A stretch of 64,000 nt of DNA from Citrus sinensis. Lineage: Eukaryota > Streptophyta > Magnoliopsida > Sapindales > Rutaceae. How positions within the stretch are numbered: the stretch's first letter is position 1; every line of letters begins with the position of its first letter. The stretch lies in the NCBI RefSeq assembly GCF_022201045.2, contig NC_068560.1, positions 29,901,501 through 29,965,500 on the forward strand, in the 5' to 3' direction. The position numbers and the translations under genes are program-made. The notes below the pieces were generated by a model. The model was given only the letters and a program-made list of their open reading frames with translations, was not told the origin of the DNA and made no database searches. Shown one piece after another: positions 2,963-59,346 of the stretch.

Positions 2963-5706
2963 ATGGCTTTGAAACTGAATCCAACAACATTCAGCTTCCC
3001 GTCGTCATCATCATCAATCCGCAAACACAGATGTTCAAGAGTCTTCATGGCATCCACTCTTCCTCCTGCTATCACCAAGTCAGTATTTTTTTTTCTTTTA
3101 ATTCCTCATTTGCATTTTAATTTGGCATGAACACGATCAAATATTCGTATTGTTATTTTTCTTTATCATTATACTGATCTGGGTTGTTTGTGTTTTATTC
3201 AAAATGTTTTTTTTTCCACTTCGTGGGTATCAGTTATTGGATTACGAACTGTTTCTTGAATGATTTTATTGATCTGGGTTTTAGTATTTACTATTTAGTG
3301 CTATGTGAGCTTGATATTGCTTTAAATCATTCGTGTCTTTTCCCTGAATTGTATTTGTCTTTTTGTGTAAGATCATTGAGATTTTTTAGGGTCGGGTCGA
3401 TTCTATTTTGCTTTTGCATTGGGATTTGATTCTTGCATGTGGCTTCAAATGGACGCCCTGTGTTTCTGCGTCCCTGTTTCTGGATGATGATGGAATTCAT
3501 TTTTCTGCTGTTCTAGCCCGGCATCATTTATTTATTTATTTTTGTATCTTGTTCAATGTTTGCTGAATTTTATATCTCTTGATATTGTAAGGGGTTTTTT
3601 ATATGCCTTGTTGCATGTGGGCCTTTCTGTTTGTCTTTTTTTTATTGTGGGGACTATTTATTTATTTATTTTTCATAGATCAGAGTTAGGTGCAGTTTTG
3701 TGAGTTAACTTATTCTTTTGGAACTTGGTCGTGTTGGTTGACTGGCTTTATATCTATGTATATGTGGGCAAGAATTCAATTAATCTATTGTCAATTACTC
3801 TTTGGTGGGAAATACATGCTTGTTTCAGTGTAGTGCAAATTTTTCATTGGAACTTGCTTGTATTATATGAGGCTCTATCATTGCATAGAGATTCTAATTT
3901 CCTTTCATCTCGTTTGTAGCTATTTCCATCACTCACTCAATTTGAAGAGTAATTTGTGATAACACAAGGTTTTGTTGGCTACTTTAGCAGCTAAGGAAAG
4001 GACTTACGAATTGCTTACCATTTGTCACACTTCTTATTGCCATCATGTGTATTAAGGGAAAAAAAAAATCAGCCCTTTTCCCGTATGATATAGGTGGTAC
4101 ATATGTATTTTAATATAATTGTTTTATTGTATTACAATTTCCTCAACTCTATAGATGGCCAGGGTATTAATATATGGTTGTGAAACTTCCCTGTTTAGCT
4201 TATACCAGTTTTTTTGTATTTGGTTACTAAATCCTTGACTTTGCTGTCAATATGGTAGTAGTTGGTGTTTATATGACGCCTTGGATGTCCATTTTTTTTT
4301 TTTTCAATCATCCCTTATCTATTGCTGCTCAGCCTGTTCCAGAAGACATAAATAATAATAATAATTAAAAAAAATGAAATAATCTGTTTTTTGTTCCCTT
4401 TTGTTTGCACCAATTATTGTTCTATTTCCCTGGGTAAAAGCCTCTTAAACCCCCTCCTAGTGAAATATATTTCTAACTTTCAATTAGAAACTTCATTTAT
4501 GCTTTTTTTGCTGTGTTCTGCTGGTTACAGAGAGGTTGGGAATCTTAAGAAGCCGTATTGCCCTCCAAGGGAGGTACACGTTCAAGTAACTCATTCTATG
4601 CCACAACAAAAGATGGAGATATTCAAATCTTTGGAGGGTTGGGCTGAGGAGAATATCTTGGTGCACCTAAAGCCTGTTGAGAAATGCTGGCAACCCATGG
4701 ATTATCTGCCGGAACCTGAATCGGAAGGATTTTATGAGCAAGTCAAGGAGTTGAGAGAAAGATGCAAGGAAATCCCTGATGACTATTTTGTTGTATTGGT
4801 TGGAGATATGATCACAGAAGAAGCCCTTCCTACTTACCAGACAATGCTGAACACCCTAGACGGGGTTCGAGATGAGACTGGTGCAAGCCTCACTTCTTGG
4901 GCAATTTGGACTAGGGCTTGGACTGCTGAAGAAAACAGGCATGGCGACCTTCTCAATAAGTATCTCTACCTATCTGGACGTGTAGACATGAAGCAAATTG
5001 AGAAGACAATTCAATACCTGATAGGATCAGGAATGGTGAGATTCTCCTTTCCTATTACTAAATTCTATATAAGAGGACAAGCTTCTTCTGTTGTCTATGC
5101 TTTGCACTTGATTTTTCAGTATTTATGAGTTTGTTGTTTTCTTAGGATCCTAAAACAGAAAACAACCCCTACCTTGGTTTCATCTACACTTCATTCCAAG
5201 AGAGGGCAACATTTATCTCCCATGGGAACACAGCCAGACATGCCAAGGAATATGGAGACTTGAAACTTGCACAGATATGTGGCATCATTGCCTCTGATGA
5301 GAAACGCCATGAAACTGCCTACACCAAGATTGTGGAGAAGCTCTTTGAAATTGATCCAGATGGCACTGTCATGGCTTTAGCTGATATGATGAAGAAGAAA
5401 ATATCAATGCCCGCCCATTTAATGTATGATGGCCGGGATGATAACCTATTTGAACACTTCTCAACAGTTGCCCAGCGGCTCGGAGTCTACACTGCAAAGG
5501 ACTATGCTGACATTTTGGAATTTCTGGTGGGTAGATGGAACGTAGAAAAGTTGACGGGTCTTTCGGGAGAGGGCCGTAAAGCTCAAGATTTTGTTTGTGG
5601 TTTGCCTCCAAGAATTAGAAGGTTGGAGGAGAGAGCTCAAGGAAGGGCCAAGCAAGCATCCGCTGTACCGTTCAGCTGGGTGTTCGGCAGAGAAATAATT
5701 GTTTAG
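2963..5706 (+). CDS. SAD: Plastid stearoyl-[acyl-carrier-protein] 9-desaturase
   Basis: Soluble di-iron enzyme of the plastid stroma that introduces the delta-9 double bond into stearoyl-ACP using ferredoxin and O2. Three exons join in frame: 2963-3078, 4531-5035 and 5146-5706 (1182 nt, 393 aa, the usual family length). The first ~30 residues are a Ser/Thr/Arg-rich plastid transit peptide. All six iron ligands of the family are present: E135 in ITEEALP, E173 and H176 in EENRH, E226 in FQERATF, E259 and H262 in DEKRH, a constant +30 offset from the castor enzyme numbering. The 1.45-kb first intron separates the transit peptide from the catalytic domain, as is typical. No lesion is seen. The specificity motif cannot be judged by eye, so a related acyl-ACP desaturase with altered chain preference is possible. 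The neighbour downstream on the opposite strand matches Arabidopsis gene order. Confidence 0.95.
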
Positions 5707-8012: not shown

Positions 8013-10076
8013 CTAATATCGGTCTACCAAGATGAAGTCGTCGTCATCAAGAACCTGAACATCCTTTTCCCCTACAAAATTCTCCCTCCCAATTTGGTTC
8101 ACCAGATTCACAAATTCTGCCCTCTTTTCCTGAGGAAGAGGTACATATGGTAATCTGAAAACTGGCCTCACAACTCCAAGTTGCGCAAGAGCTGTGTTTA
8201 AGGGAATTGGGTTTGGCTCCTGAAAAAGCCACTCAATAAGTGGGAAGAGCTTTGTATTGAGAGAAGGGTTCTTTCCTCCGAACATAAGTTCTCGCATCAT
8301 CCCTGGAACCAAGTTGCTTGTAACAGATATCACCCCAGTAGCCCCATGGTTCCACCTAGCATCATGGCATTGGTCATCATTCCCACTCCACACCACAATC
8401 CCATTACCTGTGTAATGTTCAACCCGATCATTCCCAACACATTCCTTGACACCAGCCAGGTTCGGACTCTGTGCCATTGTGTGAATCACACGCGGAGGAA
8501 TATCTTGACCAGTTCGTGACGGCACATTGTATATAATGGTGGGGCCCATGGACAACACACTATCAAAGTGAGAAATCAAGCCCTCCAAGGAAGTTTTGCC
8601 ATAGTAAGGATTTATGTGTAGTGCTGCATGCATACCAACTGCAAAACCTTGTTCAGTAGCATGAATTGCTTCCCTGGTGGAGTTGCTTCCAGTATTTCCA
8701 ATTACCTTTACTGAGGCGCCAAAGCAGTTCACTGTGTGACCAATAAGCATTATATGTTCATCCCAGCTCATGAGTTGGCCTTCACCAGTTGTGCCACCAA
8801 CAATCATACCTTCAGCACCATTTACGATCTGCATATTCACTAGGTCATCATAAGCTTCAAGATCAAATCTGCCATCTGGTAGATATGGCGTTTTGATGGC
8901 AGTTATCAATCTAAGTGCCTTTATATCCTCTGCAGATGTCCTACAATCAGAGTAAGATTATGTAAAATCATCATAAGCAGGAACTAACAGAACATACACA
9001 TTTCCAAAAGGCATTAGTTTCAATAGCAACTCATTAGTGGCATCAATTCTTCGCAAGCTAGATGTGCAAAGAAATTAATTTAATTAAAAAATATATATAT
9101 CCAACCAGCATACAGTTCCTGTAGAATAATAAGCAGAGTTAAATTTTATCATGCAAATTAAAAAAAAAAAAATCTAATGCCCCCAGCATAAAAAATAGGA
9201 ACTTCTCTGAGTACTTTAGAAATATACATTATCTGCAAGTTATTTTTACTGCATAGGCATCTCCATATGGGGAATAAGAAATTAAACAATTTTAATTCCA
9301 GACATGGTACCATCACATAGACCAACTACAGATACATATACATGATTGAGAAGGAAAAAAAAAAACAGCGGCAAAGATAAACGCATAAAGTTATATACTA
9401 AAGAGTGAGTTACCGTAGGAAAAATTCTACACATGCAAGCTTCAACTTGGAAACATCCAACACAGCTTACCTGTTTTTAACCTCAAAACTACGCATTGGA
9501 AGATGGTAATTGGGAATTATAGCTGCTTGAGGGGGTCTCCATTTCCGGTTTTTCCTGCATCGCAGCAATAGAAAAAATAACATTCGCAAATTACATTTAA
9601 TGGTTGTAACATGAATGTTGAGTACCTAAAACACAACAAGAAGTGTGAATGTTAAGCACCGATAGCTACAGTTAGAAGAAGCAGGTAGTAAAAGATGAAA
9701 AACAGATGATAAATTTCAAGCTCCTCATACTAATGGGCTTTCCTTTGGGATAACCGGTCCCATATTGCTTGAGAAACCATTGAGGAAAGTTTACTGTATT
9801 GATTCCACTTTCAAAACCTAATCAATAGTTCAACTGGTCTCACATTACATTCAAAGATTTCCCATGTCCATGCTAACAGAATGAAAAATGAAAAATATAA
9901 CCACAAATATACGCGCACACAACCAATCAATAATCAGAAACAAACTCAATATCAACGCAATCAGCTCTAAATCTGCGGTGATAAATTGATAAAGAGACTA
10001 GAAATTACCCGGTGCAAGAGACAGAGACGGGTCCGCAGTTACTGAGGTTCAACTCGCACGCATTCAAGTGAACCAT
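8013..10076 (-). CDS. DHDPS: 4-hydroxy-tetrahydrodipicolinate synthase (DHDPS), plastid
   Basis: First committed enzyme of the lysine branch: condenses pyruvate with aspartate semialdehyde in the plastid, inhibited by lysine in plants. Exons on the minus strand: 10076-10009, 9554-9472, and a last exon ending at 8013. The last exon carries the TIM-barrel, with the GGTTGEG loop, the YNVPSRT tyrosine region, the Schiff-base lysine in AGVKECVGN and the plant C-terminus [11 protein letters not shown]. The first ~35 residues are a short transit peptide. With the family-typical acceptor at 8940 the frame does not join: exon 2 ends one base short of expectation in a run of A. Using the AG eleven bases downstream (exon 3 from 8929) gives an intact 355-aa protein that lacks about four residues before EDIKALR. 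Either an alternative acceptor is used or one A is missing from the run near 9475-9479. All else looks functional. Confidence 0.9.
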
Positions 10077-21842: not shown

Positions 21843-22340
21843 CGTTTCGTTGAACTTCCTTTCCAATTCTCGATTTCCCTCTTCTTCTGCAACACAAGGA
21901 CAAGCGCAAAGTTGCTCGTGCGGTAAATAGAACAACGTGGAAATGTCGAACTCTTGTTTGGACAAATATATTAGTTTATCCGAGAGGGGTAAAAATATGT
22001 CCTTATAGCGGTTGAAATATTTCATGGCCACCCCTAATGTTTTGGTTAATATTAATTTTTCCCCTCACTTGCGAAATTATTTCTTTGACAACGAAGGGTA
22101 TTTTCGCCAAACAATATTATTTTCCGGAATACGTAACAAATCATCTTGAAATGCAAAGTATGGGGGTAACTTGGACCATCGAGTTGAAGCCTGAAGGGTT
22201 AAATAAATGAAAAATGGTTTGAGGTTAGATTTGTGATTTCAATGGACAAACCCTTCCCGCATTAGGGTTTTAGGATTTGGGCAATAACAGAACAGATCTT
22301 CCTTTATACTGTAACTCGAAAGGCAGAGAAGTATAGAGAG
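21843..22340. promoter_or_regulatory. Shared divergent promoter region of ELF9 and the PPR gene
   Basis: 498 bases separate the two ATGs, which point away from each other, so both leaders and both core promoters must fit here or overlap upstream exons. No convincing TATA box is seen on either side, as is common for housekeeping-type genes. The region includes an A/T-rich central part around 22035-22110. Confidence 0.6.
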
Positions 22341-24053
22341 ATGTGGAGATCAATAGCTGCAGGATCCAGGCTGGTAGCTCGGAACTTTGGTGTAGCCACG
22401 GAGAAGGTACAATGCTCTCAAACCCTCAGCCTAAACATATCTCGTTCTTTATCAAAACCCTCTCTTTATCGAAGCTCTAGGTTTCTTTCAGAGTCACCTG
22501 CAGCGAACCCAAAGGATGAGAGCTCATTTTCACCTGAAACGGACTTCTCTTCGCGTAGTTTTGGTGAAAATGAATATGCCCAGATGGATCCTTCTGCCGA
22601 CGCGGTTGAAAGTAATGACAATTTAGGTGAAAATTATGATACCCAGATGGAAAAATTTGATTTCATCTCTGGGGAAGGCAAAGAAGAGGAGGCGTATGAG
22701 ATTGATGGAGACAAGTTAGAGAATGTGTTGTCACTTTTGCAGAGTAGTGTGGATGGATATTTAGAGTCAAGCCTTGATAGTTTTGAGTTGGACTTACATG
22801 AAGATTTTGTACTGAAAGTACTTGAAACCCCTCTCGTTTTGGGTGAGAATTTAGTTTGTTTTTTCAAATGGGTTATGAAGCATCCTGAATATCAGGTTAC
22901 CAGTGGCGTAGTTGATGCACTTTTGAAGGCTATATGTAGCAGTGTTGGGAAAAAAGAAGTGTATGCTCTGTGGGACATAGTTAAGGAGATTGGTGAGAAG
23001 GAGAAAGGTGTGTTGACTGTGGAGATTCTCAATGAGTTGATTGCTTTATTTTCGAAGTTGGGGAAAGGCAAAGCAGCTTTTGAGGTGTTTAATAAGTTTG
23101 GAGATTATGGTTGTGTGGCAAATCAGGAGACATACTATTTTACTATTGAAGCACTTTCTAGGCGCAAAATTTTCGATTGGGCTTGGTCTGTATGTGAGAA
23201 AATGATTGAAACAGGAAGCTTGCCTGATAGTGAGAAGGTTGGTAAGATCATATCTTGGTTTTGTAAAGGAGGTAAGGCAAAGGAAGCTCATGTAGTTTAC
23301 ACCTTGGCGAGGGAGAAAAAAATGTATCCACCTCAGTCTGTTGTCGCTTTCTTGATCAGTTCACTTTGTCAGGAGGATGAAACCGTAAAATTAGCTTTGG
23401 ACATGTTGGATGATTTCTCGGGTGAGGCACGGAAGTATGCAATCAAGCCATTTTCATCTGTTATTCGCAGTCTATGTAGGATGAAAGATGTCCATGGGGC
23501 AAAAACATTGCTTTCTAAGATGATTTCTGAGGGCCCACCCCCTGGAAATGCAGTGTTTAATTCTGTTATAAGTGCCTATTCCAAGGCTGGAGATATGACA
23601 CCAGCAATGGAGATGTTGAAGCTGATGCGAAGTAGAGGATTAAAACCGGATGTTTACACTTACACAGGTCTTATGAGTGGTTATGCAAATGGTGGTCAGA
23701 TGGAGGAGGCTTGTGAAATCCTCAATGAAGCAAAAAAGAATCATTCTAGGCTGAGCCCAGTGACGTACCACACGCTGATACGTGGTTATTGCAAACTTGA
23801 AGAGTTTGATTGTGCTTTGAAGTTGTTGAATGAAATGAAGGATGTAGGGGTCCAACCTAATGTCGATGAGTATAATAAATTGATCCAGTCTCTTTGCCTA
23901 AAGGCCTTAGATTGGAGAACAGCGGAGAAGCTTTTAGAGGATATGAGGCTGAAAGGTTTACATCTGAATGGGATAACCCGGGCTCTTATAAGAGCAGTCA
24001 AGGAGCTGGAAGAGGATGCAATTGAGAATGGAGAGGCATTGGTGGAAGCTTAA
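22341..24053 (+). CDS. Pentatricopeptide-repeat protein, P class, probably mitochondrial
   Basis: Intronless, 570 aa. The N-terminus MWRSIAAGSRLVARNFG is Arg/Ser-rich with no acid residues, typical of a mitochondrial presequence, and is followed by a low-complexity acidic stretch (about residues 50-120). P-type PPR motifs of about 35 residues are clearest between residues ~370 and 560, for example VFNSVISAYSKAGDMTPAME, VYTYTGLMSGYANGGQMEEA and TYHTLIRGYCKLEEFDCALK. No E or DYW editing extension is present, so it is expected to bind and stabilise or process an organellar RNA. The RNA target cannot be inferred reliably by eye. In Arabidopsis a PPR gene (At3g02650) lies next to the At3g02640 membrane-protein gene, so this may be its orthologue. 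It runs divergently from ELF9. Confidence 0.92.
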   Translation: MWRSIAAGSRLVARNFGVATEKVQCSQTLSLNISRSLSKPSLYRSSRFLSESPAANPKDESSFSPETDFSSRSFGENEYAQMDPSADAVESNDNLGENYDTQMEKFDFISGEGKEEEAYEIDGDKLENVLSLLQSSVDGYLESSLDSFELDLHEDFVLKVLETPLVLGENLVCFFKWVMKHPEYQVTSGVVDALLKAICSSVGKKEVYALWDIVKEIGEKEKGVLTVEILNELIALFSKLGKGKAAFEVFNKFGDYGCVANQETYYFTIEALSRRKIFDWAWSVCEKMIETGSLPDSEKVGKIISWFCKGGKAKEAHVVYTLAREKKMYPPQSVVAFLISSLCQEDETVKLALDMLDDFSGEARKYAIKPFSSVIRSLCRMKDVHGAKTLLSKMISEGPPPGNAVFNSVISAYSKAGDMTPAMEMLKLMRSRGLKPDVYTYTGLMSGYANGGQMEEACEILNEAKKNHSRLSPVTYHTLIRGYCKLEEFDCALKLLNEMKDVGVQPNVDEYNKLIQSLCLKALDWRTAEKLLEDMRLKGLHLNGITRALIRAVKELEEDAIENGEALVEA

Positions 24054-26166: not shown

Positions 26167-28266
26167 CTAACTGGATCTGTTCAGCATTCCAATCATATCT
26201 TGCCGCGGACTGCACATAGCCACCAAAGGCACGGTCTTAGATAGAGATAGTCCATAACTTGCAGTCATGTCCACCTCCGGCCCTATCTTTTCCCACTCGA
26301 AGCACTGTATGAGCGAACCCAAAGCAAAAGAAATTGTACGGATAGCCATGGCTGCACCTGGGCAAGCTCTCCTCCCCATGCCAAATGGAATATGTTTGAA
26401 TCCCTCTCTTTCACTATGAATCCCTTCAAATCTTTCAGGTTTGAACTTGTTAGGCTCCTCCCACACCTTGGAATCCCTATGCATTGCCCAGGCATTCACC
26501 ATTATCGTCGTGCCTTGTGGTATGTGATATCCACCCACTATGCAGTTCTCAGAAGAGAAATGTGGCAACAGAAGTGGTGCCGGAGGATATAATCGCAGCG
26601 TCTCTTTTATGACACAGCAAAGGTATGGAAGGTTGACAAGATCCTCGTCATTTAACATGCGCCCATTTGCAACGTTGCAGTCAATTTCTGCTCTCACCTT
26701 CTGCAGTACATCTGGATTATTCAATAGGAGTGACATTGCCCATTCCAGAACAACTGCTGTCGTTTCTACTCCTGCTATAAACATTAGCTGAAAAATAGGT
26801 TGCTCAAAGTTAGAATCAAAGCCTCAGTACCGATGTCTTCGACATTCTGCACTGAGAGTACTTAATTGTATCACCTAAAAGAACATAAATAACAGAACGG
26901 TCCACGTTACATTACATTACATTACAGAACAAGAAAAACAGAGTAACTCCAAAGAGCTCACCAATGCAGCCAAAACGAGAGAGGCCTAAAACGTATATTA
27001 CACCAGAACTTAAAACTTGTATGATGAAATGAACAAATCTATCGCAAGAATGTATGATATTTGAACTCTAGTCGATCTAAAGTGGCTAGAAAGTCAACCC
27101 TTTCGTGTATTCAAATCAAGACTAAACTAACAAAGAGCGATCGCGTTGTCTTTTGCATTTATCACCATTATAAACTTGGAAATGAATAGCAATTATTGGA
27201 GGTTAACTCCCACCGAAAATGTAAAACCTATACGCTATCTTACTACGAACACCTTGGATGTTGAATTTGTCGGTAGTGATCAAATTCACCACTCATTGTA
27301 AAACACAAATAAATAGATGAATGAAAGAGTAATGGTGCTCACCACAATGACGCTTTTAAGAACATCATCGGAGTAAAATTCGGGCTCTGATTCTTGGAGA
27401 GACAAGAGAGTTTCAATCAATGACTTGTTCCTCACACTAGCAGTTTCGAAGGAAGAACTTGTTTTCTTCAACCGGATGCGAATATCATCTATCAAATTCT
27501 GCATAAATTCGTCCCGCATCTTTTGTACCCTTACATAAATCTTCTCAATGCCCTTGCTATAACCAATTAACCTCAAGATTGGAAAAAGATCACATATATT
27601 CGTTATCATGCTAGGGAAAAATATCTCCTTAAATTCCAGCAGGAATTTCTTCGCAACCTCCATGTTTGCTGCACCTGCAACCTCCTCAGTACCACGCTTT
27701 CCAGCAACAATTCTCATCATGAAATTAGTAGACAGAATAGAAAACAATGGTTTCAGCTCAACTTTTTGGTTACCGCTTGCTGTATGTGTAAACAATTGAT
27801 GAAGCAGACAATGAACTTCATCTTGAAGAATTGGAAAAGACTTTTTGAGGTTGTTGGATGAGAAGATTTCAATAACAGTGAAGCGACGAAGGGTTCTCCA
27901 GATATGACCATAATCTGCCCACGCATAGGCAGTGTAGTTGTAAGTGAAATAATCACCGCCCAATGACTTAGGCCGGTTTGCGAATATTATGTCGTTCTTG
28001 GTGAAGCAATCTTCAGCGGCAGATGCTGAAGATACAACAAGGACAGGCCTGGCGCCAAGTCGGAGATACATGATCGGACCATACTTTGACGAAAGACTCC
28101 CCAGCGCTTGGTAGAATGGCACAGGCTTCTTCATAAGATAAAGGTGGCCAATGATTGGAAGAGCAAATGGACTGGGTGGTAAGTTTTGCTGCCTGGTGAA
28201 TCCAAGTTTGATTATCAGGACTATGGAGAGTAGGAAAGCAATAAGGTAACAGTACAAGTTTTCCAT
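26167..28266 (-). CDS. Cytochrome P450, CYP81-type
   Basis: ER-anchored haem monooxygenase. Two exons, 28266-27343 and 26787-26167 (514 aa), with a phase-0 intron of 555 bp immediately before the I-helix, the conserved intron position of the family. N-terminal anchor at residues ~5-22, hinge NLPPSPFALPIIGHL, C-helix WRTLRR, I-helix AGVETT (~313-318), KETLR (ExxR, 369-373), FKPERF (423-428) and the haem loop PFGMGRRACPG with Cys450. A start nine bases upstream (28275) is also possible. CYP81 members hydroxylate isoflavonoids, lignans, glucosinolate indoles or xenobiotics, so the substrate cannot be assigned. It points away from the second CYP81 31 kb further on. The I-helix reads ETT where the second copy reads DTS. 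Confidence 0.93.
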
Positions 28267-28815
28267 CGCAAACATGAAATTGAGTTCACAAATACTTGCA
28301 GTCTTGCGGACATACCCTAATATTCTCGGCTGGATTAAACTCAATCGAGTGTGGGGTTGACTGACTTGGGATTCAAATTTTGACTAAATTAAAGTGCGAA
28401 CTATAACGAAAGTGATGTGTTTGTCTGTACTCTTAGTGGAGCAGGCACGCCCAAAAGGACCATGCCATCTGTTCGTTGACTAACATTTAAGCGAATGCCA
28501 AGTAGTAATAATTTGACAGGATTTTTCCTCCCGTATAAATTAAATTAAGGTGGGTCAGGGTATGAGGTGTTCCCTTTAAGTTGCAGCTGTCGTAAAGTAA
28601 AATATATACATGTGGAGTAGAAATTAGAAAAAAAAAATTTGTTAAGTTATTAAAACTCAACAACATGTGTTATCAAATATTTTAATAATTGGGTTTTGGC
28701 AGCCTAAGTATTTCACCATACTCATAAACGGTCTCTAAAAGTATGAGATGTGCATGCTTGCTGTAGCATCTGACCAACGGCCATTGTTGTTCATTGCAAA
28801 ACCATTTCAGCAGGC

Positions 28816-30495
28816 TGTTGGAGAAAAATCAAATTTTAAATTTTTATAAAAACTTTTAGGATCGCTCTCATACAATATATAAGAATTTGTAATTTAGAAG
28901 TCATATCTTGAAAATCCTATTTGGTTTTTTCTGCTGAAGTGATTTAGGCTCTCAGATCACGATCTATCAACATCACTCCTGTTAGATCACGATTTGTCAT
29001 TACCACTCCTTTTACATCACGATCAGCCACCAAATAATCTTTCAAGCTATGACTCAGGTTTGATCTGTACTTAACGTGTACACGCCTTTATTACCACTAA
29101 AACAACTAGTACGAGACAATTTTTCTCTTAAAATTAGATAGAAAAATATTTTTTTCTGATTTGACTTCTACCTTTTTTCAAGAGAAAATAAGTATTTTTA
29201 TATGGATCCCTCTAAGTTACATGCATGTACCTTACAACCCTCTCACATGAATAGTGAGTGGACCCACATCATTCACTATTCATGTGAGAGGGTTGTAAGG
29301 TACATGCATGTAACTTAGCATTAGCCTTTTTATATTCCTATTTAGTGAAAACCCTTGACTCTATTTTTATATTATTTAATTCTATTAAATCAAGTTTGAT
29401 TTAAATTAAAAATAATAAACCAAAAGTAACTATTTATTTCTTGTCATAGGAGCCCATTTTGTAAAATAACACAATACCCCTTAGACACAAGTACATTACA
29501 CGAAATTTCCCACTAAATAATATATTTAAGCTTTTAACTCAAATAGCTATTTATCTTATTTATTAATCTAGTAGTGGCGTAGTCTATTAAATAAGCTAAC
29601 CCGGAGATCATTTAGGAACATACAATAGTGGCTATAATAATTAGGTCTGTAATTAAACTAACTCAATTATTTAATTCCAAATCTACTCTACTAAAAGATT
29701 AAAACCGACCTCCATAATTGTATGCTTAAATAATAATTCGTTCCAAGCTACATCGATTTTTTTACTGCATAATCTTTTGTACCACATCGTTAATTAAATT
29801 AATATATTAACTGTCCAATCGATTTAATTACATCTTATTCATTAATACTTACTGATTTTCTCTAATGATCATTTTCAACATACTAAATATGTTGACACGC
29901 TCTGATCAGAGAATTTTATGATCAAGTGCCGAAAACCCATCAAGAGATGTTTTGTACAAATTCTATATTGTTAATCTATAACTCCAATACTCATAATTGC
30001 ACCCACCAAGATACCGGGTAATCTTGACCATAAGTGTTTATTGTGCCCATTGGTAACTCAAATGAAATAACAATTACAATCATAAAATCATAATTAATTC
30101 AAGATTAAGATTACAGTAAAATTAATGTTTATGAGATTTAATAAGTCTGACAATCATTTTAAGGTTAATTAAATCTCATATGTGATCCAGCTCATTGTAG
30201 TCAAACTACATTAGTAAATTTATATATGATTAAGACAAATTATTCAATGAATTTACTACAGTCTAAATATAAATAGAGTGACTAACTCTATTTATCAACT
30301 GCGAACTAAATTTATTTAATCATAAGATAACTTGTATTTATGTCTTATGTGAATCCATATAATGATCATATAAATACATATAATATGATTAAACAGACCT
30401 TATTCAATATATATTTATGTAATTAAAAATATCTCAAATATTTTATTAATCAGAAAATAAATTAATATGCTTTAAAAGAACATATAATCCCAACA
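28816..30495. mobile_element. Probable solo LTR, 1680 bp
   Basis: Begins TGTTGGAG and ends CCCAACA, so it has the TG...CA ends with a 6-bp TGTTGG/CCAACA inversion seen in many plant LTRs. Flanks CAGGC (28811-28815) and CATGC (30496-30500) match at four of five positions, consistent with an old 5-bp duplication. No primer-binding site, polypurine tract or coding region follows, so it would be a solo LTR left after LTR-LTR recombination. Short imperfect repeats with AGATCACGAT lie near 28952-29030. A snapback element lies inside at 29212-29318. Confidence 0.55.
29212..29318. mobile_element. Perfect 46-bp snapback (foldback MITE)
   Basis: Arms 29212-29257 and 29273-29318 are exact reverse complements over 46 bases, beginning CTAAGTTACATGCATGTACC, with a 15-base loop at 29258-29272. 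The transcript of either strand would fold into a long perfect hairpin. A TA dinucleotide near each outer edge allows a Stowaway-like TA target site, but the true ends are not certain. Confidence 0.85.
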
Positions 30496-30499
30496 CATG

Positions 30500-31850
30500 C
30501 ATGGTTTGAGACTTTTGAGTCAGCATCTACAGACCCCCAACCAGATAAGTTTAGCGTTGTAACATTAATGATCGTATGATATTGGTGTTGAAATATTTAA
30601 GAAGTAATGAGTTTCATTCATCGTCAGAAATCTTTTAACGGCAATCGTTATTGATTTGATTTGCCTATGCTGAAGCACTACACAATACATGAATCCAGAA
30701 CAAGTTATTTTGTCTTTCAAAACTCTCGTAATATGTCTTAGCTATTAATTTCAACAAATTCAGACTTGAGAGCATGGAAGGTGGAGGCAAAAATATGCAC
30801 CTATTGCCAGCATTATTAGTTATTTACAACAATTGCCATGACAAAGTAACAACTACATTGCTATTTCTTGAGGGGGCAATAAATGCCTGGGTACCTGCAC
30901 ATTCTTGGAGCGTTTTTTTGCCATTTTTTTCTTTATTAGTCGACTTTTGGGGTCATAAGGCTTTTAAAATTGGACAGGGACAGGAGGACGGAAAGTAATG
31001 ATTAGGCCCATTACCATATGAATAAGAATCTCACGTGGTTCTTTCTGTGGGCTTCGCCAGCGATCTAATCGATGTCCGTACTCGTGTCAACAGTCAAAAA
31101 TAAAGCCGAGAATTTGCTTCTCGATGCAGACTAGACCGTGCCTGCTGCCTGCCTATGCTATCTGTAGTCTGCACATATATATGCCTCTCTCATCCTTCAT
31201 TCATTCGGATTCGGCTTTAATCTTGTTCTCTTTTCTTTGGTCAGATTTTATTCATTTGAATAGATTTTTATTTATTCCCTGGGTTTTCTTTTTTGAACGG
31301 AATACGTTACACTTTATAGTACAGGTCTAGAGTTTTATAAACAGTCCATAATTCTACAATTAATCTCCACTTTGCTTTTAGAAGAAGGAACGCGATAACC
31401 TCTGGATAAGTTGTAAAAAGCAAAAGTTGAGTAACAAAGCTGTAGAAAGACCAATGTCGTGGAAAAAAAACAACCACCCAGCACATAACATCAACATAAC
31501 AAACGAACACAAATAATATTTAATAAGATAAAGGCCAAATTTTCCTTATCACTTAAGTCTTAATATATATGATAAAATTATGTATTCAAAGATTTACATA
31601 TGTAGACTGTAGGGCATAGAAAGTAGTACAAAAAAACGCGGATTGAAAGTCCTAAAAGGACCCCAAAATTTTGAAAAGAAAGATGCAGATTCACCCCAGA
31701 GTCGTCACAGACCCCACTATCATTGACAAAATCACAAAATGCACAAACCAGTATGGCAAAAAGCAATAATAATAGGTAGCTTCCTATGAACTTTTTGAAG
31801 CTCAATTAATGGCTTCTTTTCAACGTTTAACGGAACCGAGGAGCTTAGCT
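30500..31850. other. Intergenic region before the CLE gene
   Basis: No gene supported. Open frames at 30774-30998, 31124-31330, 31307-31510 and 31578-31805 overlap or oppose each other and resemble nothing known. The last part (31810-31858) is the probable CLE 3' UTR. Confidence 0.5.
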
Positions 31851-31858
31851 GAAAAAAC

Positions 31859-32113
31859 TCAACGGTTGTGAAGTGGGTCTGAAGCATTCGGAACTCTCCT
31901 CTTGCTTGAAAAGTACCTCAAACTTTGCTTCTGCTGCTGATTCTGCTGTTGTTTCTCTTGCACATTTGGCGGCAAATGACTGTTATTCGTACCAAAAACC
32001 ACCTTCACCTTTTCTTCCTTCTGATCTCCTGAGACTAACAGCAATGAGAGAAAAACCAATGCAATTGTCTTCTGAAGCAACCCCCCGTGCAAAAACTGTA
32101 AACGCCTTTGCAT
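31859..32113 (-). CDS. CLE-family signalling peptide precursor with unusual ligand motif
   Basis: 84-aa precursor. Residues ~12-29 form a hydrophobic secretory signal (TIALVFLSLLLVSG), followed by a variable, Gln-rich spacer and a C-terminal CLE dodecapeptide, RRVPNASDPLHN, with a single Arg before the stop codon. CLE peptides are secreted, proline-hydroxylated and perceived by LRR receptor kinases in meristem, vascular or root signalling. Position 4 Pro, 8-9 Asp-Pro and 11-12 His-Asn are conserved. Position 6, almost always Gly, is Ala, and position 7, usually a hydroxylated and arabinosylated Pro, is Ser; a Ser at 7 is also known in CLE45. Single exon, start at the first ATG of the frame. 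Which CLE subgroup it belongs to is not clear by eye. Confidence 0.85.
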   Translation of the reverse strand: MQRRLQFLHGGLLQKTIALVFLSLLLVSGDQKEEKVKVVFGTNNSHLPPNVQEKQQQNQQQKQSLRYFSSKRRVPNASDPLHNR

Positions 32114-32119
32114 CTTGTG

Positions 32120-35010
32120 AATGATTTTGAGTCTTTTTATTTATCTTTTGAGAGAGATCAGAGGAGTTTATTGATGAAATGCATACTGGGGGACCAGCAG
32201 CAGCTTGAGAGCGGAGAGGAGGGTGGGAGTTGGATAAGAAAGGGCTTGCATTCAAAAGCTAAATGGCTTTAATTTTTGTTTTGGAATGCAAGGCAAGAAA
32301 AAGAAAAAAAGAGAAGAAGAAGAAGAAAAAGGCAAATGGAGAGTTATTGAGTACACCCTGCAAACAAGGGACACAACTTACAATGCAACTTTTTCTTGCT
32401 ATTCAGCTTTTTATTCTCTCTTTCAGTCCCTAAAATAAGGGTCACTCCGAGTTCAATTTTGTGGTATAAAAATAGACTATACTATAAAGATATTGGCTCT
32501 TGTGCTTTTTTCTTTTTTCTTCTTTACTTTTCTTCTGTCTGGGCATAGTTTGTCTGCATTTGCTTTGGAAAGTAGTCCAAGTTTCTCTTTATGGCTACTA
32601 GCAGAAAAGAAAAGAAAAGAAAAGGAAAATAATCATATATAAAAACAGTTCATAACCAAGAAAGAGTAAAAATGGCTCTTGAGTATCCGAGCCCTTTAGT
32701 CATTAGTCATGCTATTTTTCCAAAAACTTTTCTTCTTCATGCAAAAGCTTACCACAATTCACAATTCACAGCCAAAGGCAAAGAAACCTGTAAAAGGTTC
32801 TAACCAATGTATTTCTTTTCCTGAACAAAACAATATCTTTAAAGCGAATTGAGTGGTCAAATCATGCGCAACAGGACCGATGGTTCTCTCCTCTACTCAA
32901 GAACTAATACAATACAAGAATACCTGCTGTTATGTTATGTGACCAGGCCGTGACTATCGGTTTCTTTTTCTTGAGTTGCCTTGGCACTTAAGCTGAAGTT
33001 CGACAAAAAGGTTAATTACATGTAAATATAGAATTAGATATACCTAAATAGCAATTAACATGTTAGTTTCCATGTCCATGCTTCACTTGTATTGATCATT
33101 CATTTCTCTGTAGAGGCCAAAAGCAAAATCAGAATGAATGCCAAAAGTAAAACATAGCATGTAAAGAAGCAATTGTATCTTGAAGCTGAACCAGGCTCTA
33201 CATCTTTGAATTACTACTTACTTACCCCACCAAAATTAAAAAAACATGGACTCATTATGCGCATGAACCTCTGACCCTGACTATGACCCTCTCTAAATGG
33301 ACAACATTAGTTAGACCTTCCAGAAAACAATATTTAATAAGTATTCAGATCATGCTATTTGAATGGACAATGATGACATGGCACGAGCACAACTGCTTTG
33401 CCATTGGTACCAACTCATCAGACTTGAGGACATAGTGAGTGCTCAGAAAATGATGTTTGGTCAGAACAGTCAATGACATTCATGAAATTTTAAAGACTCA
33501 CAAGTTGGTTTTCTGGTGGTGCCCCGCCATCTCCTGTCCAAAAGACAAAACTTGGCCCATATTAAAGTTGAATGTTTCTTCAAATGTTGGATCTGCTAAT
33601 TCCAGCTTCTAAAGAGAAAGCCCACGTTATCAGCCGACCTCTTTTTCCATTTCTATCTGAGTGCTGAGAAAATGATGTTTGGTCGCAACAGTCAATGACA
33701 AATATGAAATTTTCAAACGCTCACAAGTTGGTTTTTTCTTCTTAAAAATGGCAGCGGCATTAGCTGCCACGACTGATTTTCCTGAAGCAGTTAATTCCTC
33801 CGTAATAGATTCTGTGATTTTATAGCAAGCAGCAATGGCAATCGAAATTCAAAGGTTGAAATGCACAAGTAAAGATCCTTTTAAATCCTTCATAGTTCAA
33901 AGTCGATTTCAAGAATTAAGCCCTCATTCCAGAAAGAAGGGCCGAGAAGCCTGTATCACAACAGTATCGTCGTGCGGTTGTATCACTAGCATCAAACCAT
34001 AAGTTTGTGGAGATGACCAAAGGAGCAGAACAGATAGTCATGATTATTAAATGTGCAATTTAAGATGACATTTTACTTCAGCAAGTATAAGCTCCCATTA
34101 CATCAATGATCTTGCAAAAATGAATCCTGCCCTAGAAGATTCTTGGTTGGGATGTTGAACTAGAAGTTGGTGAAAAACATTTGATACCAAAACTCAGCTG
34201 TTAGGTTAACAAGATTTGGACATGAGCAACCTTAAGTCAGAGAAAAGTGCAACTGCCAGGATCATGAGTAGGTCAAGGCTATTGCTTATAACAAACTCAA
34301 CAATCTTCTATACATCTATGGCAACATCCCTGAATAATAAAAGTTCAATGGTACATGATTTTTCAGTCAAATTAAACATCCGACTCAAACCTTACAAATT
34401 GATCACTTCAAACAATGCACCATCCCAGCAGAAGAACATTCTCAAATCCATCATACAACTTATTGATATCCGAGAGAGGTAGAAACAAACTTACTAAGCC
34501 TAGCTCAAGCTCAAAAGAGTGAATAAAATGGTGCATATTGCAAGAGAAACTACAATTCAATCTCATTAGCTGGCTAAAAGTGTTTATAAGATGCTTCTTC
34601 ATGGAGTTGATTTATACACATGAGAATTTACATCATTCAACTTATGAACTAAAGAAACACATACTAAGACTAATAAGTCTAGCCATCAGCATGGCCCCCC
34701 AGCATTTCTCAAAAAATTAGAAATCCCCTTCTCTAGCAGAGAATGATCTTCCAATGTCACTATTAGTAGCTGCTTGCATTACCAGTGCCATTCATACAAT
34801 TCAAAAGTCTCCAATCACCAGAGTGCTAGCAATGACAAGAGTCACTCCCCCCAGCATTTCACCACAAGCAATCAAATTCAAAGATCTCTTCCACCAATAG
34901 AGATCGGTGATATGCTCACTAAAAAATCAATCTTCTGAGTTAGAATACTAGTTAGCAACTTTTAAATCAGACCTCTTTTGCCAATGATAGCTCAAATAAC
35001 AAATTCCAGT
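32120..35010. other. Intergenic region between CLE and cyclin genes
   Basis: Upstream region of CLE (32114-33000, pyrimidine- and purine-rich runs) and 3' flank of the cyclin gene. The only structure I see is a local duplication at 33437-33735 (separate entry). Open frames at 34216-34482 and 34538-34720 are not convincing. Confidence 0.5.
33437..33735. repeat. Dispersed direct repeat, two ~77-bp copies
   Basis: 33437-33512 and 33659-33735 share GAGTGCT.AGAAAATGATGT and the surrounding ~77 bases, ending CACAAGTTGGTTTT, at roughly 85 percent identity by eye, about 220 bases apart. No gene or transposon is recognised in either copy. Confidence 0.7.
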
Positions 35011-35016
35011 CCAACT

Positions 35017-36752
35017 TCAATCTTTGATATCTTCAAAGTAACAACTAGGTATCTCTGGAGAAGAAGGGGTGGTTGCCACACATTTGAACTGTTTCCAACA
35101 AGTAATAAAACAAATAAGATTAACATTTTAGCTACACATCATAACATTAAATAAACTTGACACTTAACCAATACACTACCTTATGTTGCTTGTATTTTTC
35201 TCTTACAGCTTGCAAATTCCCTCCTCTTCTACTCAAATAGAGGTCATGTAGGATAAGAACACAGCCTTCTATTTCAGATGGTTTGTATCCAGAGTATTGT
35301 TGCAAGCTAGCAGTCTGCAAATACAAATGCCTAGCTAAATAATTGCACTTCAGGAATAAAAAAACTCCATCAACTGTAAATAGAAATCAGCTTACCCAGG
35401 GATGCTTTGATGGTTGGGTAATGAATCTTGCCAGGAATATAACAGATGCAGCAACTGAAGAGGGCAAAAATTTCACACAAGCATAATCTAATAGACTCAG
35501 TTCTGCAAGATAGTATCCAAGGAACTCTAGTTGCAAATTGGAAGCCTGTGAAAACCACACAAAAAATAATAATAATAAGTAATCAAGAAGAAACTCGCTC
35601 ATGCCTTTAGCAGCAGATCTACAAAAGACAAAAAGGGTGGAGATTTCACTTACATTGTAATCCTCTTGTGCAACCCTGGTGAATCGCCTGCACATCAACA
35701 CAGTAAAAGGAAAATAACAATCAGCGTTCAGCACAATGGACCACTAAACGTTTTTCTAATTATAAGCAACAACTAAAAGAAGAATCTTCACCTCAAAAAT
35801 GTCTTGACAGTGGGACTTCCCAATTCAAACTTCAAGGACTTGAGTATATCGGCCTCCATTTTCACCACCTCGTCTTTGGTGTAGGTATTATCCGTAATGT
35901 AGCAAAAATCCTCCACATTTGGAGGGCTAATTTCCTCATACTTTCTACTTGATACAAAACAACAAAAGTGACATCATAAGCAACCAGAAAATTGGCAATC
36001 AAACATAAAAGAAAAAGGGCTTACGAAGAAAAAAAAAATAGAGAGAGAGTTAATGGCCGCTTACGAGGCAATGAGCATTGAAGAAACCCCAAGCAATTGA
36101 AGCTTCTGGCGATTGAGAACATTCAAAGAAAGGAACCTATCAATATACGAAATGGTGAGATAGAGGGTATCTGAAACAAGCTTGTATTCCTCCGCAACCT
36201 CCACCAACCAGTCAACCAATACCCCTCTCATGTTTGCACTCACATCCTTCTGAACCTTCTCTACGTAATCAGGCAAAGGCCTTCTCTTTGGATCCACCTA
36301 CATTATCAGAGAAATTAAACTTGTTAACAAAACATGAAAAAACGGAAGCAAAGGAAATTAAACCCAAAATATGATCTAAAGCTTCAGTTTTTTTTTCTTT
36401 TTTTATGTACCTCCATGGAATGAAGATACTGGTAAATGTCGGTGACGTAGGCTCCACAGATCTGAGGGTCATCGGATCTGGCATCAATGTCAATATCAGC
36501 ATCCTCGGTTGCCTTGGTCTTGGCCTTGGCCTTGGTCTTTTCCGTTAGCAAAGCCTTCTTCGCTTTGGCCTTGGCTTTACGCGGCTCAGCCTTGAGACTC
36601 GGATTCACCGAGACGACGACGTTTGTGTTGGTGGGCAACTCCCCCAAGACCACCCGCTTCTTTTTGGCTGGCTGCTCCGAGGCACTTCCAGAGGCCGCCC
36701 TCTTCTTGGCCGCTGCCCGTGTGACCCTAACAAAGTTCTCTTGATCCGCCAT
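35017..36752 (-). CDS. CYCA3: A3-type cyclin
   Basis: Regulatory subunit of cyclin-dependent kinase, nuclear; A3 cyclins act around G1/S and S phase. Seven exons: 36752-36411, 36297-36065, 35944-35792, 35687-35654, 35545-35396, 35314-35180, 35088-35017, total 1119 nt, 372 aa. A basic, Ala/Lys-rich N-terminus contains the destruction box RVVLGELPT at residues 33-41, the signal for APC-mediated proteolysis. The cyclin box starts with [18 protein letters not shown] (from ~137) and includes LIASKYEEI; the C-terminal cyclin fold contains [24 protein letters not shown] motif at 36922-36930 resembles an E2F site and would fit S-phase control, though it deviates by one base. The start is the ATG reading MADQENF; an upstream in-frame TTG was discounted. 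Confidence 0.93.
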
Positions 36753-37395
36753 TACCAAACTAATGCTTCACTCAATTTGGGACTCAAGAGAGGAGGAGAG
36801 AGGGATTTTGGAATTGTGTGAGAGCAAAGGAAGGAAGGAGAAATAAGTAGAGTTGTAAAATAGAAGGGAGAGGGAGAGGGAGAGGGAGAGAGCGCCATCG
36901 TTTTGGTTTTTCAAAATATCATTTGGGCGCTCGCTTCCCTCTCTCTCTTCGCACTTGAATCTTTTTGATTTTCAGTTTTTGTCCTCTTAAATTTTTATTT
37001 TTTTTTTGAAATAGAAAATCAAAAATTTTGGGGGCTAAAAACATTTTTAAGCCAGAGCGCGGTGGGATTGGCGGGATTTTGTTTTGTTTTTTTTCAATTT
37101 CATGCCGTGTCGACACGTAAGCCAAATATCTATGCAGATAAATAACATTATATAAATTACGTAAAGATGAGTGGAAAATTAATGGTTGATCTCATGAATG
37201 TTTATGTGAAACCCATTTATATTTATTAATTAACCGTTAAGTGATCGTCTCGACTCTCGAGATATGAAGTCAGTGAATCCTTTTAACAGGCCTTGCCGTC
37301 TTGAAAATATATAAAATTGATACACTATTACAGGACAGGACTGTAAAATAATTATGCGTTCTACTTTTCTAATATTCTATGATAATAAAATAAAA

Positions 37396-37535
37396 TTTTT
37401 TTTAATACTGATTAATCATTAGATTATTATATTACACAGATATTTATAACAATTACTTATTGTAGCAGAGATATTACACTGATATTTACAGTCAGATATA
37501 CATAATTAGGACTTATATTATTATAATAAATTTTA
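37396..37535 (-). mobile_element. Truncated SINE copy (3' end only)
   Basis: Starts with a T run (the A tail on the minus strand) and matches the tail half of the complete SINE at 38730-39074: ATTACACAGATATTTATAAC and CACTGATATTTA.AGTCAGAT can be aligned between the two. The tRNA-like head with A and B boxes is missing, as expected for a 5'-truncated insertion or a decayed copy. Confidence 0.55.
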
Positions 37536-38034
37536 TAAAATACATGTTTAAATAAATAACTTCTCATAAAAAAAAATATCCATACTCTACTTATATTTTA
37601 TAAAAAAAAAAAATTTTTAAATATAAAAAATATTTAGCCCTCACAATGTTTGTGAGGGCAGCAGCCAAGGCCGAAGTGGCTGATAATAAAATAATTGAAC
37701 TACTAGATTAGGAGAAACTCTAGAGTCGTCCACGTAATGAATTAAACAATTCGAAAACGAGGGACGGTGATTGGCCGAGAGGGAGTTTTAGAAATAGTAG
37801 CGCCATTTCTCTTGTTTTCAGAACATTTTTATTTTTACCCGCTTTTGAAGTTCTGGAGGGGTTTCCTCCTTTTGACTAATTTTTTTTGTTTTCCAAAAAT
37901 TTCAAATTCTGGGACAGCGAGTGGCCTTGGCCTAAAAGGCTCTGGCTCGTGTTAAATTTTTTAAAAACTATAATCATAGCCCGCAGCTAGCCTGCTGCCC
38001 TTTTGTGTAATTTCTGTTGATGGTATGTATTTTA

Positions 38035-54909: not shown

Positions 54910-56895
54910 ATGTTCAGGCCAGTCGTCTTATCTCCTCCCACTGGGCATCCTCAGCGGTGGCATAAAACTTGGGCTCGCCTGCTTGCTCCTCTTACCATAT
55001 GGATATGTGGCATGTAATTTTGCATCTTCTGTTGCAATTCCTCTTGATGAAGTCATCACCATTCAATCTAACTTTTTTTTTTTTTTTTTCCTTTTTTCCA
55101 AAATTTGCATGTTGCAGTTTCGGTAAGTCTGCGATACGGGTACTATGGAGATTGCCGCATGGTGCTTGGACCAGGGTCGTCAAGACTGATGAAGGCAAGT
55201 TCTTTGTTCGTTCGCCAAGTCGAAGTCAGGTCTGGTAGCGAAAAAGGGTTTCTGCTTTATGGGTTCTCTGAGAAGCCTCAGTTAACTCATGAAACTAATT
55301 GGACTGTCTCGAACTTTTTGATGGTTGGATCTTATAGTCGCAAGGTGGCATTTCAATTTCGTCCTTTGAATTAAATTCAGCTACACTACTTCAGCACCTT
55401 AGCTTTCTATAGTTAAAAATGATTAAATTAATCTTTCAGGGAATTTCTTTGTGGTTGAACAACGGCTCTGCTATCCGTATGAGATGGGAAACTCGGGGCA
55501 GCAAATTAAATGAAACCCAATTGGTCATAATTAAAGGTTAGTACGGTTTATTAAAGTTCTTTGTGGGCTAAACTTGTATCATTTGTGATTTCATTGTGTG
55601 ACAAAATGTACGCATGTGTCTACTTGCTCTAGGAGAACGAGAATTTCAGACATTACTGCCAAAATTTACAAGTTCCTCTGATCCCCCAGCTCTGACCGAT
55701 CCCATCGACGGTATGATTTTTGTTTCTCTTGTCTCCTCTTTTCAAATGAATAAAAAATCGAAAATAGGACGCGCCAGATAGGGGTCGAACCTATGACCTT
55801 CTGCTTAGGAAACAGACGCTCTATCCACTGAGCTACAGGCGCTCTGTTGAAAACCTTGCATACTTAAGAGATTATATCTGATTTAATCTCAGTATACTTA
55901 ATTTTTTATTTTTCAGGTAAAAATGCAGAATACGATGTTGAGGAAGACGACATGTACTATTTTGGTGTCACAAACAAGAATCCTCGAAGCATAACAATGA
56001 CAATGAATGTAAATGTCACATCGAAAATATATGATCTGACAAAAGCGAAGAACATGTGCTCATCGTCAAACGGATCTTGCCGGCTCAAACTCTTGTTTCC
56101 CAATAGTCAATATGTCATACTTACAACACCCAGCAATGTAAGCGGCCCTCATTCTTTTCCCACCTTTGTACCGTGCTCAACAAGTTAACCAATTCCCTGA
56201 GGGCTGAGACTTGAATCGGCCTCAATCAATAGTAATTTATTCAATTGCAGGGAGATCTAGATGGCTGGCACGTTGAGGTATCATTTGCGGCTCGTTTGAT
56301 AATTTACATTGCAATTTTAGGTACGATATCATTCATAAAACTCATTTGATGATTCTTCTTTTTACAACATCTTTTCACACCCACTCTCATTAACCGGATT
56401 TTAATTCGTGCTGTCTTTAGGATTTATCACCTTGATTATCTTTCTGGTATCAAAATACCTTGGAGCCTGTGATGGTAATAGTGACAACACAGATAGCACA
56501 GCAGCTAGAGAAGTAACTGAGACTGACCCTCTAGTCCACGAGAAGCCAGTTCAATTCACCTATGGAACAACCAATAATGACGAAGACGATGATGCAGGAT
56601 TTTCTAGTACCTCTTCAGATGATCTCTATGACGCAAAATTATGTGTAATTTGTTACGACGATCAACGAAACTGCTTCTTCGTTCCATGTGGCCATTGTGC
56701 AACATGTTATGACTGTGGTCAGAGGTATACGTTAAAAATCGACCTTAATGTTTATTCTCATGAGACATAGTAAATCTGTGTTAGCGACTTTATTGATGAA
56801 TTGTTTTAATTTGCAGGATTATGAAGGATGATAGCAAGGTGTGTCCAATATGTCGTACGCTTATTCATAAGGTTAGAAGATTGTTTACCCCTTAG
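54910..56895 (+). CDS. Membrane-anchored RING E3 ubiquitin ligase, APD family
   Basis: Related to Arabidopsis ABERRANT POLLEN DEVELOPMENT 1-4 (At2g38185 group), endomembrane E3 ligases needed for pollen mitosis. Exons: 54910-55006 (or to 55009), 55118-55344, 55440-55536, 55633-55710, 55917-56137, 56251-56320, 56421-56724, 56817-56895; 390 or 391 aa. Residues ~27-40 are a first hydrophobic segment, followed by a lumenal domain (RYGYYGDCRMVLGP, then GVTNKNPRSITMTMNVNV). A second TM at ~253-276 (LIIYIAILGFITLIIFLVSK) precedes an acidic cytosolic linker. The C-terminal RING (~338-385) has CVIC, PCGHCATC and CPIC ligands in C3HC4 order. The first intron has no good GT donor in the right phase: either a weak GTGGCA or a GC donor. 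Intron 4 carries an antisense tRNA. Start chosen as the only ATG in frame; exon 1 is less certain than the rest. Confidence 0.88.
55770..55842 (-). tRNA. tRNA-Arg (anticodon CCU)
   Basis: 73-nt cloverleaf. Acceptor GCGCCTG pairs with CTGGCGC apart from one T-T mismatch, discriminator G. D-arm GCTCAGTGGATAGAGC, anticodon loop TTCCTAA (CCU), T-arm GGTTCGACCCC. Two downstream T runs in the minus sense (four T at 55764-55761 and six T at 55757-55752) serve as Pol III terminators, and a CAACA just upstream fits the plant CAA initiation motif. It decodes AGG. It lies inside intron 4 of the RING gene on the opposite strand. Confidence 0.96.
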
Positions 56896-59239: not shown

Positions 59240-59346
59240 CCCCATTCTAATACCACCATTCTTATTCTCCTCCTTGTTCAGACTTCATACTGCTGATAGA
59301 ATCATCAAATCGCAACTAGCGTCGTGAAAAAAAAGAAAAAAAATCC

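Follow-up and report, generated by a model that had tools for sequence, protein, structure and literature searches.

A Citrus CLE gene whose ligand lacks both Gly6 and Pro7 resembles CLE genes of poplar and tomato

The stretch of Citrus sinensis DNA analyzed here (the window, 64,000 nucleotides) encodes a CLE precursor whose dodecapeptide carries Ala6 and Ser7, the two positions regarded as the kink sensed by CLE receptors and typically occupied by Gly6 and Pro7. The precursor layout is intact, no second copy was found, and the motif is common with a poplar gene and, except for position 6, with a tomato gene. We judge it fairly likely that this is a functional CLE gene of an R-[RK]-V-P-N-[A/E]-S-D-P-L-H-N subgroup, occurring in poplar and tomato and encoding an agonist. 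The subgroup is already present in published poplar and tomato lists and, at the sequence level, has the look of a CLE family branch that is conserved yet has escaped study, not of a one-off oddity.

Precursor and locus

The gene lies on the minus strand, for which an earlier note on this DNA had given no strand (Table 1). The open frame around it spans 31862-32140 (minus strand), so that an in-frame stop lies closely upstream of the coding sequence, which has a single ATG (Met), 84 codons and a TGA stop; the C-terminal end reads ...SSKRRVPNASDPLHNR-stop and the full translation is MQRRLQFLHGGLLQKTIALVFLSLLLVSGDQKEEKVKVVFGTNNSHLPPNVQEKQQQNQQQKQSLRYFSSKRRVPNASDPLHNR. From a hydrophobic N terminus the precursor passes through a polar, Gln/Lys-rich middle, where a 12-base repeat occupies 31929-31956 in the variable region, to KRRVPNASDPLHN-R-stop. 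Among the 12-residue stretches sampled, hydropathy was highest at residues 17-28 (Kyte-Doolittle mean 2.91). The short length, an N-terminal secretion signal as judged by hydropathy alone and a C-terminal motif of 12-13 residues preceded by basic residues are those of a CLE precursor, and the family's Arg/His1, Pro4, Asp/Asn8, Pro9, His11 and Asn/His12 are all present (here Arg1, Asp8 and Asn12). Of the typical residues, Gly6 is replaced by Ala6, and Pro7, hydroxylated and often arabinosylated in CLE peptides, by Ser7.

Table 1. Features of the Citrus CLE locus, in window positions.
Feature	Position	Strand	Basis
CLE precursor coding sequence	31859..32113	-	one frame, 84 aa + TGA; single DNA match genome-wide
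Signal-peptide-like N terminus, residues 1-29	32027..32113	-	hydropathy peak; cleavage site (after Gly29) placed by eye
Gln/Lys-rich variable region (residues 30-71), C-terminal end YFSSK	31901..32026	-	
CLE dodecapeptide RRVPNASDPLHN, residues 72-83, then Arg84 + stop	31865..31900	-	translation, pattern match, alignment
Ligand codons Ala6 + Ser7	31880..31885	-	translation, pattern match
AAAG/CTTT-rich upstream 900 bases	32114..33013	-	word counts; suggestive only

The earlier note had read the dodecapeptide exactly, with Ala and Ser in place of Gly6 and Pro7; its list of retained residues (Pro4, Asp8-Pro9, His11 and Asn12) agrees with the translation, to which Arg1 can be added, and its recognition of a CLE precursor is borne out by the C-terminal motif and the precursor layout. 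Since Pfam returned no family for the 84-residue precursor at E up to 10, the CLE assignment rests on these two features. The pattern V-P-xxx-[DN]-P-x-H-[NH] has a single match in the window and was absent from all 100 dinucleotide shuffles, and this control together with the complete precursor layout rules out a chance open reading frame. No Rfam family reached the gathering score across 28000-38000.

Two cytochrome P450 genes, each seen as two exon-sized open frames, flank the CLE gene on opposite strands (26170-28383, minus; 59320-60965, plus). Elsewhere in the window lie a partial stearoyl-ACP desaturase open frame (5146-5703, plus; best PDB match 1afr, E 3.9e-109), open frames for a dihydrodipicolinate synthase (8016-8957, minus), a PPR protein (22266-24050, plus) and a C3HC4-type RING finger (56405-56767, plus), and a tRNA-Arg with anticodon CCT (55770-55842, minus).

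Standing within the Citrus genome

DNA and protein searches covered the 299.7 Mb genome in 11 contigs. The genome-wide DNA search found no second copy, its one match being the gene itself, while the protein search (E up to 10) pointed to five places: the gene itself, two CLE25-like genes on C6 (E 0.03) and C4 (E 1.1), where the match covers the motif, and matches outside the motif on C7 (E 0.73, residues 9-61, two stops) and C8 (E 5.8, residues 2-62). A recent duplicate is argued against by the absence of a second DNA copy and by the CLE25-like nature of both motif-covering matches.

A genome scan with P-x-x-x-[DN]-P-x-H-[NH] gave 86 matches, compared with 29 for the reversed pattern; the scan reaches genes with Pro4, and those without it (e.g., CLE45 types) lie outside. 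The frame at each match was inspected, and 14 of the 86 were counted as clear precursors, having a Met, a hydrophobic N terminus and a CLE motif. Three of these 14 are without Gly6 (the present gene and two Cys6 genes) and three without Pro7 (the present gene, the Ser7 gene L019 and the Ala7 gene L061); within this Pro4-limited scan, the present gene alone has lost both. L052 (C5:38937058; KRDAPTTSNPLHN) also lacks Gly6 and Pro7 and was left uncounted, being a 50-codon frame with no Met and no Val3. Six further loci (L016, L017, L042, L051, L073, L090) were likewise set aside, having CLE-like motifs without a Met followed by a hydrophobic stretch, as was the repeat gene L043; the other matches did not have the look of a CLE motif in a precursor. 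The two Cys6 precursors are L022 (C2:25794287; RRVPSCPDPLHN) and L048 (C5:28449244; REVPSCPDPLHN). L043 (C5:8151231-8151401 and flanks) consists of tandem 48-base repeats that encode a 16-residue unit similar to QQDSITPGGPNPIHN some eight times over, and resembles a multi-CLE-domain gene without Arg1, with an in-frame stop between the sixth and seventh copies. That the present gene is the CLV3/CLE40 orthologue is thought unlikely, as CLV3-type motifs, judged at motif level only, sit elsewhere (L017, REVPTGPDPLHH, identical to PtCLE1; L073, RVVPSGPDPLHH).

In a tree of the 14 Citrus precursors the gene joined the CLE25-like and Cys6 genes weakly (support 40/64), on a branch of 2.56. An alignment to the two CLE25-like precursors shows Y-x-S-K-R-R-V-P-N-x-x-D-P-x-H-N-R in common, at overall identities of 37 and 32%.

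Counterparts in poplar and tomato

The dodecapeptide was compared with 50 poplar motifs (PMC4776436, Table 1), 52 tomato motifs (PMC9670457, Table 1) and 16 Arabidopsis peptides given in the available part of PMC5538625. PtCLE9 (RKVPNASDPLHN) and SlCLE27 (RRVPNESDPLHN) are each identical to the Citrus ligand at 11 of 12 positions; next, at 9 of 12, come the CLE25-type, Cys6-type and SlCLE32 motifs, the CLE25 type leading by BLOSUM62. Both Gly6 and Pro7 are missing from one poplar motif of 50 (PtCLE9), one tomato motif of 52 (SlCLE27) and none of the 16 Arabidopsis peptides checked, and the Ala6/Ser7 peptide is therefore not a one-off; by these list and scan counts, the double loss marks one gene each in poplar, tomato and, as far as the Pro4-limited scan reaches, Citrus. 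No other Arabidopsis CLE is known to carry both changes. Taken singly, a residue other than Gly6 occurs in 4/50 poplar, 6/52 tomato and 0/16 Arabidopsis peptides, and one other than Pro7 in 4/50, 7/52 and 3/16, respectively; since members without Gly6 exist in the poplar and tomato lists, Gly6 is not a strict CLE criterion.

The Citrus peptide has the V-P-N-x-S-D-P-L-H-N of the subgroup with neither Gly6 nor Pro7, Ser7 being common to the rosid and asterid members and position 6 being Ala or Glu. PtCLE9 (Potri.002G121800, Populus trichocarpa) resembles it in Ala6-Ser7, in the Lys before Arg1 and in length (79 vs. 84 aa), and differs in Lys2 where the Citrus peptide has Arg2, the likeness being judged on the ligand and not on the full precursor. 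Tomato SlCLE27, compared on the ligand alone, has the same Ser7 and Glu6 instead of Ala6. Of the conservation that the earlier note had proposed to look for in related species, Ser7 thus holds in both plants, whereas Ala6 holds in poplar and gives way to Glu6 in tomato. On the 12-13 residues available for comparison, PtCLE9, SlCLE27 and the Citrus gene may be orthologues.

Among better known peptides, the CLE25 type (AtCLE25, RKVPNGPDPIHN; two Citrus copies, RRVPNGPDPIHN) shares R-x-V-P-N-x-x-D-P-x-H-N-R and an upstream Y-x-S-K with the Citrus gene, but has Gly6, Pro7 and Ile10, and in the two Citrus copies the frame continues beyond HNR, whereas the Ala6-Ser7 gene stops after Arg84. The Cys6 type (RRVPSCPDPLHN in PtCLE22/30 and SlCLE28), which we take to be the AtCLE27 type, is also without Gly6, ends in D-P-L-H-N and has 9 of 12 residues as in Citrus, but differs in Cys6 and in retaining Pro7. 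CLE33 and CLE45, ligands of BAM3, have Ser7 and hence no sugar site at residue 7, as in the Citrus peptide, and CLE45 also has its Asp8; unlike it, both are without Pro4, and CLE45 retains Gly6. The absence of proline at positions 4 and 7 that characterizes these BAM3 ligands in the available text of PMC10244433 is not found in the Citrus peptide, which has Pro4. Ser7 is further recorded in CLE20, CLE40 and CLE45 (PMC5538625) and in CLE33 (PMC10244433), and a legume survey, in which one group is poorly conserved at residue six, has position 7 occupied by Ser or Ala in 10 genes of soybean and 5 of bean (PMC4526924).

The poplar survey places PtCLE9 in Group II with CLE25- and CLE45-like motifs (PMC4776436); it is not to be confused with PtrCLE9 of another study, a distinct peptide with the sequence of AtCLE9 (PMC11900962). 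The tomato survey lists seven orthologues of the phloem genes AtCLE25/26/45 and, in the part available, names SlCLE27 solely in its table (PMC9670457). Among open-licence full texts, as far as their available parts go, PNASDPLHN or SDPLHN was found only in the poplar and tomato surveys, as table rows and with no discussion seen. The available text of a pennycress survey contains no SDP motif (PMC10436580); since it prints gene names only, this is no proof that the subgroup is absent from Brassicaceae.

Expected activity and alternative readings

The best reading of these data is an agonist akin to CLE25/26/33/45 that would be free of sugar at residue 7. The precursor would be secreted and cleaved before Arg1, and Arg84 trimmed, to release an agonist of 12 residues, possibly with Hyp4. 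CLV3 bears an arabinose chain on Hyp7. The earlier note had held that a peptide of this type might signal with no sugar attached, which is sound for residue 7: Ser7 cannot carry such a chain, and no sugar is expected there.

Exchanges made in other CLEs indicate what the two replacements may do, within what the available sections of the respective papers report. For residue 7, CLE26 P7A was hyperactive (PMC4526925) and CLE26 P7S still active and not BAM3-dependent; BAM3 dependence of CLE26 required replacing both Pro4 and Pro7, and CLE33 lost its need for BAM3 once either proline was introduced (PMC10244433). Going by these swaps, which keep residue 6 of the parent peptides, Ser7 with Pro4 would give an active, CORYNE-dependent peptide, and since Pro4 is kept the Citrus peptide is probably not restricted to BAM3. 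Other CLV1/BAM-class receptors would then bind it, perception presumably requiring them together with CLV2-CRN. The hydroxyl of Hyp7 is not recognized in the TDR-TDIF crystal structure (PMC4979064). For residue 6, the evidence is divided: one study saw no activity of CLE26 G6A at 10 uM (PMC4526925), whereas 6-Ala/6-Thr versions of CLE26 and CLE27 were active at 10 uM in another, those of CLE26 being weaker at 10 nM, and CLE1/4 and CLE7 needed Gly6 (PMC4526918). As G6A also inactivated TDIF (PMC4979064), Ala6 may weaken the Citrus peptide, which should be active unless Ala6 spoils its activity.

Expression would be likeliest in vascular tissue or phloem, a guess that follows from the CLE25/26/33/45 relatives being phloem genes. 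Counted together, AAAG (the DOF site core) and CTTT occur 35 times in the 900 bases upstream of the gene, vs. 13.0 on average across the window (sd 4.8; 631 overlapping blocks, two of which reach 35), and dinucleotide shuffles of the region gave a mean of 25 and a maximum of 34 (n = 300). The corresponding counts were 19 and 24 at the two CLE25-like genes and 9, 11, 15 and 16 at four other CLE genes, and 119 blocks of CLE loci, own locus included, had a mean of 13.9 and a maximum of 33. Because the excess stems partly from A/G-rich tracts, including an AGAAA array at 32603-32628, it is only a hint of DOF-type phloem regulation; DOF factors induce phloem CLE genes in Arabidopsis, as described in the available text of PMC10244433.

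A special case of the agonist would be a dedicated ligand whose Ala/Glu6-Ser7 sets its specificity for a receptor that Brassicaceae lack, BAM4 being the most plausible one. BAM4 is described, in the part of the source available, as the sister of BAM3 in angiosperms, missing from Brassicaceae and with no known ligand (PMC10244433), and each of the 16 Arabidopsis peptides checked has at least one of the two residues; co-absence from one plant family is a weak argument, and we regard this reading as unlikely. Very unlikely in our estimation is the wider proposal that a rosid/asterid subgroup missing from Brassicaceae, and for that reason unseen by Arabidopsis work, signals via a receptor independent of the Gly6-Pro7 kink, BAM4 being the candidate.

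The earlier note had instead raised a natural peptide that might compete with other CLE ligands. Such an antagonist or decoy would occupy CLE receptors without forming the Gly6-Hyp7 kink, in competition with ligands of the CLE25/26 type. In the TDR-TDIF structure the peptide is kinked at Gly6-Hyp7 and the kink is recognized by a pocket that is conserved across CLE receptors, G6A being reported to abrogate other CLE peptides besides TDIF (PMC4979064), and Gly6 substitutions in CLV3 led to clv3-like plants (PMC4526918). Yet synthetic Gly6 (or Cys6) variants of CLV3, CLE40, CLE1/4, CLE7, CLE26, CLE27 and CLE45 were no clear antagonists, although the authors allow for weak effects (PMC4526918), a synthetic Cys6 peptide (SKRKVPSCPDPLHN) significantly altered Medicago root length at 10 uM (PMC2254619), and the change that gave a possible CLE26 antagonist was D8A (PMC4526925), while Asp8 is kept in Citrus; these statements are again those of the available parts of the papers. 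Since 6-Ala/6-Thr peptides are not clear antagonists and Ser7 is known in several CLEs (CLE20/33/40/45), an antagonist role finds little support and is quite unlikely, and the poplar and tomato counterparts speak against a singular one.

A degenerating CLE25 or CLE27 paralogue under relaxed constraint would suit the long branch in the within-genome tree and the lack of a Pfam match, but is highly improbable given that the open frame, processing site and other key residues are intact and that poplar has the identical Ala-Ser pair and tomato the Ser7.

Significance

If a rosid and an asterid have both retained a CLE ligand with neither Gly6 nor Pro7, then not every receptor would depend on the kink. 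As a natural experiment, the subgroup lends itself readily to finding the receptor pocket, perhaps that of BAM4, which accepts a CLE ligand without these two residues.
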